This document shows, in pieces, positions 6,463 to 39,205 of a stretch of 64,000 bases of DNA (positions within the stretch are counted from its first letter, which is position 1; each line of letters opens with the position of its first letter). The DNA is from Nitrospira sp. LK70 (GTDB lineage: Bacteria; Nitrospirota; Nitrospiria; Nitrospirales; Nitrospiraceae): the NCBI GenBank assembly GCA_011090425.1, contig PHGD01000008.1:1-64000 (forward strand), read 5' to 3'. Under the pieces are notes generated by a model that searched no databases, had not been told where the DNA came from, and saw nothing but the letters and a program-made list of their open reading frames with translations. The position numbers and the translations under genes were made by a program.

Positions 6463-6704
6463 TGCATTTCTCCTTGATCATGCAAATCTCCGGTCGCCCA
6501 CCTTGAGTTGTCGTTTGTCGATATCGGATGTCAGCATCACGTTCAAACTTCGGATCAGGTCGGTTGGTGGGATCCGGCACCAGTGCCGACGAGCTTTCAC
6601 CGAACACAATTGACCACAGACACACCATGCTTCGTTACCAGCAGTAATAACGACATCGCAAGGACGACGATGTGGGTTCCTTAAGGCGGACCTCCGGTGA
6701 CCGG

Positions 6705-7277
6705 TCAGCGGACGATCTCGCGGTTATCGAGCTTCTGCGGAGGCAGCTGCTCCACCACCTGCAAGTGATTGTTCACTTTCTTGACCCCATGGACGCCCTC
6801 TGCCGCCCTTTCGGCCGCTGTCTTTGACAGGTCATCAAGCACGTCGCCCTTGAGGGTCACCTCGGCCTTACGCACTGAGATCTGGAGAGTTGGATTGCTT
6901 TCGAGCGCAGGGGTCTGCTTAAAGGCTTCCCAGACATCCCGTCTGATCTTGTAATCTGGTGCCAGCGCCCTGTCCACGATCACATTGTTTCTCACGCTTC
7001 GTACACCCGGTACCGTGCTGGTGATCGTCTCGGCCCAACCCTTTTCCTCCGGACTCGCGACCTCACCGAATAATGTGACATTGCCCTTGTCGACCTGGAC
7101 ATGCAACACTTCCCAGTTGATGCGACCATCCTTCCGCAATTGCAGTTCGATCTTCGACTGGATCGTTTCATCCGACATATTGTTGGATTCCGTCGCGGCA
7201 AAGGGTGTCGTTGGTGCGACGACACCTATGCAAAGCACGACACTCGCCCAGGCCACTATCTCATTCAGTTTTCGCAT
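6705..7277 (-). CDS. periplasmic protein with BON domains
   Basis: A 190-residue exported protein. The start at 7277 is preceded by GAGGAG and opens a signal peptide (MRKLNEIVAWASVVLCIG, with a likely FAA cleavage). Two BON domains follow: SDETIQSKIELQLRKDGRIN... with VDKGNVTLFGEVASPEE, then IRRDVWEAFKQ... with VRKAEVTLKGDV. BON domains bind phospholipid and occur in OsmY-type periplasmic stress proteins and in secretins. A role in envelope stress is a family-based guess. A longer in-frame extension up to 7499 lacks a good ribosome site and would bury the signal peptide. Confidence 0.85.
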   Translation of the reverse strand: MRKLNEIVAWASVVLCIGVVAPTTPFAATESNNMSDETIQSKIELQLRKDGRINWEVLHVQVDKGNVTLFGEVASPEEKGWAETITSTVPGVRSVRNNVIVDRALAPDYKIRRDVWEAFKQTPALESNPTLQISVRKAEVTLKGDVLDDLSKTAAERAAEGVHGVKKVNNHLQVVEQLPPQKLDNREIVR

Positions 7278-7614
7278 GGTTGTGCTCCTCACTGTCTCCA
7301 TGACTAGTTGGATGTTGAAACGCCCGTCACCTTTGTTCTCGCGGCTCTCAAAGACCTCACGTACAACCGGGCAAGGGCTGCCGGAGCTGCTCGGGGCTGG
7401 TGAATTCAGCAGTCTTTTTGAATATCCTCCGGGAAAGGATGGTTCCATCCGTAATCGCTTCCAGGCCTGTAGTCTCCCCTCACGTCCATCACGGTTCAAA
7501 CCTACGCTGTTGTACTCTAATAGTCCTACTGGGTGAATCCCCTGTTGATGCCGAAGTAAGACAGCGGAAAAGAAAACGCCTGTTTGCAGAAATCATGATG
7601 CGGAAGAGATGACA
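7278..7614. other. intergenic, BON-gene upstream region
   Basis: These 337 bases separate the BON gene start from the histidine-kinase remnant at 7615. It must carry the BON gene promoter, but no clear -35/-10 pair was found by eye. No plausible coding frame is seen. Confidence 0.4.
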
Positions 7615-30440: not shown

Positions 30441-30953
30441 GTTGAGATCTCCCCTCCTATTCTGAACGGCTCTATCCTTAGTTTTGCCTTGGTTCTTGGT
30501 TTCAGCCTGCATTCAGACGTCATAGACTCTCCCGCTTATGCACATCAGGCTCTCTGCTCCATCGCTGAGTCACTAATCATCCAGACTCAGCAACTTCTGT
30601 TCCCCAGAAAGTGAAATCGAACTTGGCCCTTCGATCATCTTGAAACTAGGAGGGAGAAGTTGGGTAGAACGCAGGATTGCAGAAAGAGAACGTGCCTAAG
30701 GAGGTGCCGAAGTAGTGGCACGATGCCGAATGATCGGCTCCTCCATGCTGGGTCTCTTGAGCTCTTAGTTAAGAAAGACGTCTCAGATTTGGCTCGATTT
30801 CCACAGGCATGAACGACTTTTCATGATTTCTTCATGATTTCTTCATGATGTCTGCATTATGATCCCTTCATGAATAATTCATCAGATTTGCAAAAAACAC
30901 TACCGTCCAACTCATGTCACACGCTCAATCCAGAAATGAAAGGTGATCCAGAC
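30441..30953. other. intergenic, 513 bases, divergent promoter region
   Basis: It lies between the minus-strand NmrA-like gene and the plus-strand lipoprotein gene, so it must hold two promoters. Near 30820 there are three tandem 11-bp repeats followed by a -10-like TATGAT (30858-30863), listed separately. An open frame from 30870 to 30953 in front of the lipoprotein start is probably untranslated leader. Nothing else is recognised. Confidence 0.5.
30820..30863 (+). promoter_or_regulatory. three tandem 11-bp repeats before a -10-like box
   Basis: TTCATGATTTC (30820), TTCATGATTTC (30831) and TTCATGATGTC (30842) repeat with an exact 11-base period. TATGAT follows at 30858 and no -35 hexamer is needed if an activator binds the repeats. 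The pattern is like OmpR/PhoB-family binding sites, where direct repeats one helical turn apart replace the -35. The family of regulator is inferred. Confidence 0.55.
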
Positions 30954-31859
30954 ATGCAGCCACGCAAGGACTACGGCAGCCGCTTGGGTTCTTTGATCTC
31001 GTTGACTGGCTTCACATTGGTTCTGAATGCCTGTGGATTGCATCAGGCGGTCCTGCTTGAGCTGGAGCAACAAGACCGTCTTGCTCCACAGAAACACCGC
31101 GAGAAAACTTTAGCTGAAATCAAGCAGAAAGAGCAAGCAGCTCTTGTGGCTCAGAAACCTATTAGCGCAGGCGATACAATTCCCCAATTGTACGCGCAGG
31201 CGCTCCTCCAAGGCAGATGGGAAGGCGGTGCCTGTAGTGAACGAGCGACCATTGAGATCGAGCTTGCCACCGCCGATCATGAAGCTCCTTTCAGTCTGTA
31301 TGTTGAGCCGGCCGATGTCGTCGGAACGTTCAGAGCGTTGGACCACTCAGTACCGACACGACCACGAATAATCGAAACGGGACTCAAGGGAACCTTCGAT
31401 TATCAGAAGGGAGTTCTCCGTATGGAGGCTACCCCAAGACCCATCATTCCAACGACAGAGGAGGCGGAAGAAGAATACCGCCTACGGGACCATGCAGCAG
31501 TGGAGATGAACCTTGTCTCGGAAGAGCTGCAGTACGGTTCACGTGGACCTTGGGGTATTGAGAATGTAGAGCAAGCGGAAAGGAACAAGAAGGCGTTGGG
31601 GGAACTTAAGATGCGGGAGGCTCTCAGGCGGACGGCGAAGGCAGAGGAATATGCAGCAAAGGTCGCCGCGGCCAAAGCTGAACTCGTCCCGTTCCAATTC
31701 TCCATTGCACGAGATTGGGAAGGAAAGGGTTGGGCAGGCACCATTGATGGCCCACACTTCAAAGGGTGTGAACTTCGTCTTGCGAGCAAACAAGGAATTA
31801 CAACCGACAAATTGCCACCGATACAGATGGCACTGCACGGAGCCAAGCATCAGAATTAG
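30954..31859 (+). CDS. unrecognised lipoprotein with coiled-coil segment
   Basis: A 301-residue lipoprotein not matched to a known family. The ATG at 30954 follows AAAGGTGATCCAGAC. The signal peptide ends in a lipobox (SLTGFTLVLNAC-G). After it, helical charged segments (LELEQQDRLAPQKHREKTLAEIKQ) lead to a region with the pattern LQGRWEGGACSERATIEIEL and SLYVEPADVVGTFRALDH, and a second helical stretch rich in Ala, Lys and Arg lies at about residues 215-250 (ERNKKALGELKMREALRRTA). The C-terminus has WEGKGWAGTIDGPHFKGCEL. The GACSE/GCEL Cys pair may be disulfide-linked. It is transcribed from the repeat-containing region upstream. Confidence 0.65.
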   Translation: MQPRKDYGSRLGSLISLTGFTLVLNACGLHQAVLLELEQQDRLAPQKHREKTLAEIKQKEQAALVAQKPISAGDTIPQLYAQALLQGRWEGGACSERATIEIELATADHEAPFSLYVEPADVVGTFRALDHSVPTRPRIIETGLKGTFDYQKGVLRMEATPRPIIPTTEEAEEEYRLRDHAAVEMNLVSEELQYGSRGPWGIENVEQAERNKKALGELKMREALRRTAKAEEYAAKVAAAKAELVPFQFSIARDWEGKGWAGTIDGPHFKGCELRLASKQGITTDKLPPIQMALHGAKHQN

Positions 31860-32217: not shown

Positions 32218-33501
32218 GTGCTGCATCGATCCAGGAACTACGGCGTGTTCCGTCACTCAAGCCTAGCCTTCGTTGCTCTGATTCTTCTCTTTGGATCGTT
32301 CCTCGTCACAGATGCAGGGGCCGAAGAAAAACCAAGGCCTGGTCTTTATGAGTTCGAGCCCATTCCCAGAGTAGCAGAGAAGGCAACAGTGCGGCGGCTG
32401 CTGTCGGAAGTTATGAAGATCCGGTTCAACGGCTATTTCCAAGTCTCCTATACGCAGAACTTCAACGACCCGTCCGACGATGTCAATCAACTCCGCGTTT
32501 TCGACGTCAACTCCAATAGCTTTCGGGCAAACGTGATCCAGGCTGCGATAGATCGACAAGCGAAACCCGGTGATTCCGCTCTCGATCGGTTCGGCTTTCG
32601 CGTTAAATTCAACGCGGGGCAAGATGCGGATTACATGGGCGGACTGAATCTGAATCCATTCGCGGGCTTCCAGGAATTCTATGTCCAATATCTCGCTCCG
32701 GTGGGTCGTGGGCTTGACCTGCAAATCGGGCAATTTAACGCTCTGGTCGGCTACGAACAGGTGGGGAACCCGTACAGCCCGAATTACTCACGGTCCTATC
32801 TGTATATGGGGCAGCCCTTCACGACAGGCGGCATCTCCGCTACGTACGAGTTCAACGAACAGGTCGTCCTGTCGGTCAGGGCGATTTCGTTTATCAACGC
32901 GGTTCAAGCGAATACCCAGCACGAGCCAATGGTGGAGTCGCTGTTGATGCTCTTTCCATCTGAAAAGGTGAGACTCATGCTCTATGGGTTGGCCGGGCCG
33001 AGGGCTGGTGCGCCGGGCACGCCGGGAGGGACGCTCCTGCTGGGAGGCGGATATGCGAGTTGGCAGTTCGCCGCGGAGACCTGGGCGGTCATTGAAGCGT
33101 ACTATGCTAATCAGGCCAACAGCAGCCTGATCAGCTCTGGGAAAAATGCACGCTGGCAGGGGGTGGCAGCCTATCTGTTTCATGACTTCACGAAAGAATG
33201 GGGTGTCCGTTTACGCGGAGAGATCTTCGAAGACCAGGGAGGCTTGGTGATGTGTCAGGGTACGACGGCCTATCAACCAAAAGCCAACGTGTGCTTCGGT
33301 GCCACATCAACACAAGCTGCGCCGGCCGTCGCCCAGACCCTGTGGGAAGTTACCGCCACGCTTGAGTACAGGCCGTTTTCATCGTTGAAGACAAGACTTG
33401 AATACCGCTATGACAAGTCCAATCAGAATGTCTTTCAACTCGGCGACCGAGCGACGAGCTACCAGCCGACCCTTTCGTTCGATGTTGTGTATATCTTCTG
33501 A
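32218..33501 (+). CDS. outer-membrane beta-barrel porin (BBP2/OmpL-like)
   Basis: A 427-residue outer-membrane protein with an N-terminal signal peptide (RHSSLAFVALILLFGSFLVT, cleavage near AGA-EE). The body shows alternating amphipathic strands with aromatic girdles (FNGYFQVSYTQNF, VGYEQVGNPYSPNYSRSYLY, VTATLEYRPFSSLKTRLEYR) and a C-terminal Phe, as expected for BAM-assembled barrels. The best family guess is the putative beta-barrel porin-2 type. Start is GTG at 32218, with GGGGAGAAG upstream; there is no earlier ATG in frame. Two Cys residues (VMCQGTT and NVCFG) could form a disulfide in a loop. Confidence 0.82.
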   Translation: MLHRSRNYGVFRHSSLAFVALILLFGSFLVTDAGAEEKPRPGLYEFEPIPRVAEKATVRRLLSEVMKIRFNGYFQVSYTQNFNDPSDDVNQLRVFDVNSNSFRANVIQAAIDRQAKPGDSALDRFGFRVKFNAGQDADYMGGLNLNPFAGFQEFYVQYLAPVGRGLDLQIGQFNALVGYEQVGNPYSPNYSRSYLYMGQPFTTGGISATYEFNEQVVLSVRAISFINAVQANTQHEPMVESLLMLFPSEKVRLMLYGLAGPRAGAPGTPGGTLLLGGGYASWQFAAETWAVIEAYYANQANSSLISSGKNARWQGVAAYLFHDFTKEWGVRLRGEIFEDQGGLVMCQGTTAYQPKANVCFGATSTQAAPAVAQTLWEVTATLEYRPFSSLKTRLEYRYDKSNQNVFQLGDRATSYQPTLSFDVVYIF

Positions 33502-38085: not shown

Positions 38086-38703
38086 TTACAACCCTACAGA
38101 ATGATTGTGTTCAGCACTTTGACGCTCGCTGATGGGCAAGGATTTCCCACTGTCATCTCCCAGACAAAATGTTCGTTCTTCCGCAGGATGATGTCCCATG
38201 GGGCCGCCATAATAAGAAAACTCCGCCACTTCCGCTTCCCGGTTATTCCAGATATGAAGACACTGCGCCAGAAGATGCGGCAGCACTCTCGGAGCCCCTC
38301 CTATCATTTCTGTGCCTGCCTTGTCGGTCATTCCGACGACGACAACTTTGTTGCCTCTCTGAAACAGACCTGACTCTGGAGAGCCGTTGAAGGCAATAGC
38401 ATACCAGAATGAGTCTGCTCGTTCCGCACTCTTCGTACCATAGGCCGCATGGTTCTCAATGGACTGGGCCTCGACAAGAAGGACGACTCCTTCCGGTTTC
38501 CGAATAACTTCTATGATTTCTCCTCCCAACTCCACTTTGTGCGAGACAAAGCCGGCGTTCGACGGGTGATAGGTCTGTTGCTGCCAAGCCTCGACGTCAA
38601 AGGTATAGGTTTCGACGTTTTTCATAACTTCCGGAGGAAACATCGGGATGACTGTGCAGGCTTCCAACATTAGACACATCGCAAACAATCCGATCATGCG
38701 CAT
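38086..38703 (-). CDS. Slp-family outer-membrane lipoprotein
   Basis: A 205-residue lipoprotein. The start at 38703 is preceded by AAAGGGG and opens MRMIGLFAMCLMLEAC, with a lipobox at LEAC. The mature part begins TVIPMFPPEVMKNVETYTF, the FPPEV signature of Slp (starvation-lipoprotein) family proteins, followed by VSHKVELGGEIIEVIRKPEG and VGMTDKAGTEMI. Slp proteins sit in the outer membrane and are induced by starvation in enterobacteria; the role is not defined. An extension to 38775 adds an improbable second hydrophobic stretch. Confidence 0.78.
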   Translation of the reverse strand: MRMIGLFAMCLMLEACTVIPMFPPEVMKNVETYTFDVEAWQQQTYHPSNAGFVSHKVELGGEIIEVIRKPEGVVLLVEAQSIENHAAYGTKSAERADSFWYAIAFNGSPESGLFQRGNKVVVVGMTDKAGTEMIGGAPRVLPHLLAQCLHIWNNREAEVAEFSYYGGPMGHHPAEERTFCLGDDSGKSLPISERQSAEHNHSVGL

Positions 38704-39205
38704 GGCGAATCCCCTCTTTCTATCCAACACTCCAGAAACAACAATCAACGAGAGTGCAACGAACGTCGTCATCATTTGCCGTCATCTCCTTTGATCTGTA
38801 CGCAGTGTATCGTTTGAATATGAATGGTCCATGATGAGATCGTGAAGAAATCTTCACCATACATCCTCTATAAAAATGATCGGTCCACGGTCCGCGTTCC
38901 TCGATCTTCAATATGACGTATCTCCAGGCTGCTTCGCGTGGACCGCTGTCCGGCAAGACAAGCCGAGGTCGGTTGTCTGTCCGAAGGCGCTGAGTCTGCA
39001 TGAGGAGGATGCGGTCTTGCCCCGTGAAAGACTGAAATCCCCAGGCAAGCAGAGGGATATCGGCAAGAATAGGCTTGGGAGGGTGAATCAGGTCAGACCT
39101 GGTCGAAGTCACATGTCCGCTGTGGTTTTGGCAGACTCGGAAAGAGGCCGTAGTGGGTCACGATATGCCTTGTGTCTGCTGATAGAAACTCAACGCGCTT
39201 TGCGA
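38704..39205. other. intergenic, 502 bases, with a palindrome
   Basis: Open frames of 130-144 codons cross this region on both strands, but none has a start signal or recognisable domain. The perfect inverted repeat GTGAAGA-AA-TCTTCAC at 38842-38857 is upstream of the Slp-like gene and may be an operator. Confidence 0.45.
38842..38857. promoter_or_regulatory. 7-bp inverted repeat, candidate operator
   Basis: GTGAAGA and TCTTCAC are perfect inverted copies with a 2-base AA spacer. It is 139 bases upstream of the Slp-like start on the minus strand. The regulator is unknown. Confidence 0.35.

Follow-up and report, generated by a model that had tools for sequence, protein, structure and literature searches.

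PhoB binds tandem repeats with a period of 11 bp; they end roughly 10 bp ahead of the -10 box, replace the -35 box, and keep a fixed distance to the -10 box. The sites of PmrA (BasR) are direct repeats with an 11-bp period. An array that stands in the -35 place at a fixed distance from the -10 box is typical of activators. For the copper- and zinc-type regulators, the CusR box is given as AAAATGACAAnnTTGTCATTTT, with the half-sites ATGAC-N6-GTCAT, and the CzcR box as GAAAC-n6-GTAAT (PMC11195947, available part). The amoC3 gene of Nitrosomonas europaea is a non-operonal amoC, which is reported to be stress-regulated and controlled by a global sigma factor (PMC6311188, available part, citing Berube and Stahl 2012). 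A 2017 survey of the transcription factors of comammox Nitrospira names no amo regulator in its available part (PMC5596200). Among the open-access titles and abstract openings retrieved, none reported an amo regulator or the motif described here for Nitrospira.

A repeat array was analyzed in a stretch of 64,000 nucleotides from a Nitrospira genome (hereafter the window; positions refer to it). The array is a real, conserved regulatory element. Sequence comparison suggests that a two-component regulator of Nitrospira, itself little studied, most likely docks at its repeats. The candidate is the response regulator RR42 with its kinase HK42, for which the evidence is good but indirect.

Array and promoter in the window

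The original prediction described three 11-bp repeats next to a TATGAT hexamer, and took them for an OmpR/PhoB-family activator site. Both elements were confirmed: TTCATGATTTC is located at 30820-30830 and 30831-30841, TTCATGATGTC at 30842-30852, and TATGAT at 30858-30863. Tandem Repeats Finder placed a repeat of period 11 with 3.5 copies at 30820-30857. The lag-11 identity of this stretch is 21/22 bases, the window maximum across lags 5-40; Markov-1 simulations (n=61) gave at most 17 at this lag, compared with the 21 observed. Single TTCATGATTTC-like words are common in the window (36 with up to two mismatches, versus 20.6 expected); thus, the signal is the array, not the word.

The TTCAT units start at 30820, 30831, and 30842. 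A fourth, inverted unit, ATGAA (30809-30813), which the original prediction did not include, lies 11 bp upstream of the first TTCAT. The full layout is ATGAA-N6-TTCAT-N6-TTCAT-N6-TTCAT-N10/11-TAnnnT. In the window, the predicted operator (30809-30846, plus strand, like all the promoter elements described here) matches 20/20 of the specified bases. It contains a distal inverted repeat ATGAA-N6-TTCAT (30809-30824), which has the half-site spacing of the E. coli CusR box, and two tandem TTCAT half-sites read from the sequence, one at 30831-30835 and a promoter-proximal one at 30842-30846. The putative -10 box TATGAT (30858-30863) follows 11 bp past the last TTCAT. The -35 consensus is absent, with TGATTT at 30835-30840 in place of TTGACA. 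Two extra TTCAT units (30867-30882, starting at 30867 and 30878), likewise absent from the original prediction, are found downstream of the -10 box; they are 11 bp apart here, whereas relatives space them differently, some by about 14 bp.

A separate conserved block, GGCACGATGCCGAATGATCGGC (30717-30738), contains inverted repeats, and 18 of the 23 columns at 30717-30739 are invariant in six genomes. Its pattern has a single exact match in the window, and the block precedes the array by about 70 bp. This block may be the site of a second regulator.

Conservation of the promoter and its lipoprotein gene

The predicted controlled gene encodes a putative lipoprotein of 301 aa (30954-31859, plus strand). 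Its start was set at 30954, behind a Shine-Dalgarno-like stretch, AAAGGTGAT (30939-30947, plus strand), in which AGGTGAT is kept in 6/6 rows. The profile search matched no Pfam or NCBIfam family to this protein. Relatives were found in Nitrospira MAGs, and the orthologs share 69-78% identity. Among 59 genomes (the own genome included), the match was strong in five and weak in three more. The AlphaFold model, built with four sequences, has a mean pLDDT of 45.5, which was too poor for a fold search.

Conservation was analyzed in six distinct genomes with the lipoprotein gene: that of the window, G010, G001, RBC093, G024, and G016. All 20 specified array bases are invariant in the 6/6 orthologous promoters read, versus 7/18 invariant columns in the spacer and 3/49 just upstream.

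A BBP2-type porin gene (32218-33501) lies downstream of the lipoprotein gene, and it also adjoins the lipoprotein gene in four further loci (L026, L027, L028, and L286). The window contains a second, weaker array (17/20; 38820-38857, minus strand), also missing from the original prediction, which precedes an Slp-family outer-membrane lipoprotein gene (38086-38775, minus strand; PF03843, E 8.7e-9), predicted to be co-regulated. The Slp gene itself was confirmed near the lipoprotein gene in the window and in the same four loci. The lipoprotein array lies 3.5-8 kb from an Slp-type array in G000, G001, G010, G016, and G024.

Distribution and consensus of the arrays

The original prediction proposed a search of the genome for the repeat, which should not turn up at random inside genes. 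The exact three-unit array was found at four places in the own genome, with none in the reversed control. Three of these places overlap no ORF of at least 100 aa; at the remaining place, the sole overlap is with a 121-aa ORF that runs on the other strand from the urease genes. With up to two mismatches, the three-unit search of the own genome gave 21 matches versus one in the reversed control (C2:1814 and C119 are included), some of them mutually overlapping and some perhaps inside genes. With up to one mismatch, 44 matches were found in 14 relatives versus none in the reversed control, and 3/14 genomes had none. The four-unit pattern with up to three mismatches gave 156 matches in 36/49 Nitrospirales genomes, versus two in the reversed control. 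The array could in principle be a short tandem duplication without function that arose by chance, because slippage generates such repeats. The conservation in all six promoters and the excess of forward over reversed matches make this explanation hardly credible. A two-unit pattern (TTCAT-N6-TTCAT; 21 matches, reversed control 0) was discarded; many of its matches lay inside ORFs of at least 100 aa.

The spacing and the consensus were analyzed using 104 distinct arrays (at least 17/20) from the loci in hand, collapsed to 79. T and A are found exactly 10 bp past the last unit in 87% and 82% of the 79 arrays, respectively, in columns outside the selection. For the TANNNT pattern, offset 10 accounts for 48% of the arrays and offset 11 for 13%; each of the other offsets from 3 to 34 accounts for at most 6%.

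The array might also repress or silence transcription and not activate it. The TTCAT units at 30867 and 30878 are downstream of the -10 box, so that a protein sitting on them could prevent initiation, and the array at the urease locus points against its operon. However, the array replaces the -35 box, and the TA of the -10 box holds its distance in most of the 79 arrays, so that repression is considered unlikely and activation is preferred.

Across the first two units and the spacer between them, the consensus reads ATGAAGANNTCTTCAT. Like the CusR box ATGACAANNTTGTCAT, it has N6 between 5-bp half-sites, and the two 16-bp palindromes agree at 10/14 specified bases (PMC11195947, available part). 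The half-site spacing of the CusR and CzcR boxes is the same as in ATGAA-N6-TTCAT (same source and part). The window copy keeps only the outer ATGAA and TTCAT; its inner bases (CGACTT) misfit the wider palindrome of the consensus. Unlike the CusR/CopR/PcoR/CzcR sites, the array adds two tandem half-sites, which reach the -35 position. The genes read beside the arrays are also different from the targets of these regulators, being of the amoC, lipoprotein, and urease types; no efflux pump was encountered among the genes read. The array is similar to the Pho box in its 11-bp tandem repeats, its standing for the -35 box, and its fixed distance to the -10 box; whereas the half-site sequence is different and the first unit is inverted.

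Linkage of the arrays to RR42/HK42

The search of the own genome returned only four DNA-binding domains of the OmpR type. The four regulators were read as PhoB-like with a PhoR-like kinase (contig C25), RR42/HK42 (C42; RR42 at 6620-7303, minus strand), RR121 (C121), and KdpE-like (C105); RR42/HK42 was classified by a family profile scan, and the other names are our own reading. A winged-helix response regulator, RR42, is thus present in the genome, and it is linked to the sites. An array of at least 17/20 stands beside RR42 in 20/21 of the loci fetched (L050, L180-L198, and L208). In 17 RR42 loci, the array follows the kinase gene at a distance of 46-824 bp and in the same direction; in L196 (family f2), and in L197 and L198 (family f3), it is found on the other side, 1.1-3.1 kb ahead of the regulator gene. 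The lone locus without an array (L188) ends 208 bp past the kinase gene. The reversed control at 16/20 was 0 in every RR42 and RR121 locus scanned. Ten further RR42 genomes have an array on the RR42 contig (10/10, among the places listed), within about 6 kb in nine; in G031, the distance is about 12.5 kb. As a side observation, the stretch preceding the RR42 gene in L050 (7355-8409) encodes a ferredoxin-thioredoxin-reductase-like protein as well as a 205-aa protein; at least one of the two was detected in 16/21 RR42 loci.

The arrays and RR42 also co-occur among genomes. RR42 (at least 68% identity) is present in 29/35 same-genus genomes, all 29 of which carry arrays; arrays were found in 2/6 of those without RR42. 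The other four (G021, G022, G025, and G030), all 99% complete, had no arrays with up to three mismatches. Among 14 other genomes of the order, arrays are present in 2/2 with RR42 (65% and 70% identity) and 3/12 without it. Fisher tests gave p values of 3e-4 within the genus and 3e-8 across the 49 genomes; the genomes are related, so these values overstate the independence of the observations.

Another OmpR-family regulator, such as the RR121 paralog, the KdpE-like protein, or an unlinked one, might bind the array, and the RR42 linkage would then be incidental. Five genomes would fit this explanation: G004 and G007 carry six and four arrays, with best RR42 matches of 51% and 39%, and G042, G044, and G046 carry two, three, and one without a close RR42. 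These genomes are 73-99% complete (G042 is 99%), so an assembly gap is a possible cause of the missing RR42. On the other hand, the array-free G021, G022, G025, and G030 keep RR121 orthologs (88-93% identity), and arrays at 16/20 were found in 0/4 RR121 loci, versus the 20/21 RR42 loci. The KdpE-like region (L051, own genome only) has one weak 12/15 match, near the chance level. Control by one of these other regulators is therefore improbable, and RR42 is still the preferred candidate. TTAAT-based 11-bp repeats were seen at L171 (3595), at C121 of the own genome (L049, 5521), and at C130:5654, two of them near RR121-type genes; such repeats are perhaps the RR121-type regulator's own motif.

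The initial hypothesis was that the array is a Pho box, in which case PhoB would bind the 11-bp repeats and the lipoprotein gene would respond to phosphate starvation. The array shares the repeat period of PhoB sites and their distance to the -10 box, and contig C25 carries a gene for a PhoB-like regulator with one for a PhoR-like kinase behind it (names by our own reading). However, no array reaching 12/15 is present in the phoBR-like region (L044), and the best three-unit match in 18 phosphate-binding-protein loci is 12/15 (L081 and L088). Arrays were thus found neither at phoBR nor at the pst promoters scanned, a set that excludes the own pst promoter, where phoU and its preceding gene stand at a contig start. 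The arrays track RR42, which argues against PhoB, and RR42 scored below the PhoB family cut-off (187.7 bits against TIGR02154, cut-off 296.2). PhoB was dropped and is considered very improbable. A different repeat, TGTAAC-N5-TGTAAC-N5-TGTAAT (17/18), precedes a phosphate-binding-protein gene in G016 (L076, about 1277); weaker 13/18 forms occur at L075, L084, L085, and L088, and 11/16 locus strands scanned have no TGTAAC-type box. This repeat is a weakly supported candidate for a Nitrospira Pho box.

The best NCBIfam matches are TIGR01387 (cztR_silR_copR) for RR42 and TIGR01386 for HK42. RR42 scored 254.8 bits against TIGR01387, under the curated cut-off of 279.2, and HK42 was likewise under its family cut-off, which distinguishes the pair from CusR/CopR/PcoR/CzcR. 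The best PDB sequence matches of RR42 are 1kgs (DrrD), followed by 8jo2 and 4s04 (BasR). DrrD and PmrA (BasR) are OmpR-family regulators with solved structures, and are the nearest to RR42 in the PDB by sequence. The half-sites and the regulon of PmrA differ from the array and the predicted RR42 targets. H88 and H163 of HK42 are present in 18/18 closer rows and 18/21 kinase rows, a conservation that is no evidence of metal binding.

Genes beside the arrays

The own genome carries partial amoC genes. In five genomes (G001, G003, G010, G016, and G024), an array precedes a singleton-type amoC; that of G003 stands behind the RR42/HK42 genes and shares their strand. An array followed by a gene of about 220 aa and then amoC was found in G000 (array 16/20), G004, G007, G012, and G024. 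The ~220-aa gene also follows the array in G003, G005, and G006, where the contig then ends, and in G031, where no amoC was seen; the contig of G013 ends before a readable stretch. One of the ~220-aa proteins (L213) matches PmoD (6cpd, E 8e-9), with which the others share 64-77% identity; these proteins were read as AmoD-like. No array at 15/20 was found within flanks of up to 1.5 kb at 24/30 amoC loci scanned (from 51 amoC matches); therefore, such control would by no means extend to every amoC. The amoC-linked array is present in 8/18 amoC-bearing genomes (G000, G001, G003, G004, G007, G010, G012, and G016) in a search that covered G000-G019 and G035-G048; the amoC of G024 was seen outside that search. 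The singleton amoC under a dedicated stress regulation would be similar to the N. europaea amoC3; whereas a two-component operator is predicted here instead of a global sigma factor (PMC6311188, available part).

Slp-family lipoproteins follow arrays in four loci (L071 of the window, L101, L114, and L093). A PAS-domain protein follows the array in L001, and its relatives do so in L098, L103, L106, and L210. Four loci (L004, L099, L115, and L216) have a three-unit array between ureA and ureB, facing away from ureB. TANNNT is located 10 bp after the array in 4/4, and the inverted unit is found at N5 rather than N6. This array could drive an antisense transcript into ureA. In L279, L281, L283, and L284, an array is located between a membrane-protein-like gene and a 105-123-aa gene, near a helicase-like gene; the one 105-123-aa protein searched matched no Pfam family.

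Proposed mechanism

The half-sites at 10-11 bp, the -10 box at a fixed distance, and the lack of a -35 consensus are the features of OmpR/PhoB-family operator-promoters. The activator-site reading of the original prediction is supported by the repeats abutting the -10 box without a recognizable -35 box, by the conservation in six genomes, and by the RR42 linkage. It may be refined in that there are four half-sites, the first inverted, and that the regulator is likely CopR/CusR-like rather than PhoB. The array is probably the operator-promoter that drives the lipoprotein gene; phosphorylated RR42, with HK42 as its kinase, would bind and activate it.

We infer that phosphorylated RR42 would occupy the CusR-like inverted repeat ATGAA-N6-TTCAT and the two further half-sites in 11-bp steps, a first dimer sitting at the inverted repeat and a second at the tandem half-sites beside RNA polymerase. 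The last half-site lies 10-11 bp upstream of the -10 box, at the -35 position. Since it sits where the -35 box would be, RR42 would bring in RNA polymerase by direct contact, with a transcription start expected near 30870. RR42 might also drive the genes beside its own operon, some of the amoD-like/amoC and singleton amoC operons, the Slp lipoproteins, and others. The signal is probably periplasmic, and the leading guesses are copper or envelope/AMO stress. Copper is suggested by the CopR/CusR-type regulator family and the PmoD-like gene; an envelope/AMO stress regulon would fit the singleton amoC of other nitrifiers, reported as stress-regulated (PMC6311188, available part).

A broader proposal, which is tentative and rather doubtful, is that RR42/HK42 might be a dedicated regulator of AMO biogenesis in comammox Nitrospira. 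It would sense periplasmic copper or the status of AMO or the membrane, and would activate the amoD-like/amoC operons, the singleton amoC, and two outer-membrane lipoproteins, the window gene being a new accessory; the antisense-facing site in the urease operon would dampen urea use.

The analysis thus yields a single candidate regulator together with its predicted operator and a set of candidate target promoters. The RR42 prediction can be tested with purified protein, without genetics in a slow-growing nitrifier. Similar sites before ammonia-oxidation genes in several relatives provide a testable lead on the control of comammox ammonia oxidation.
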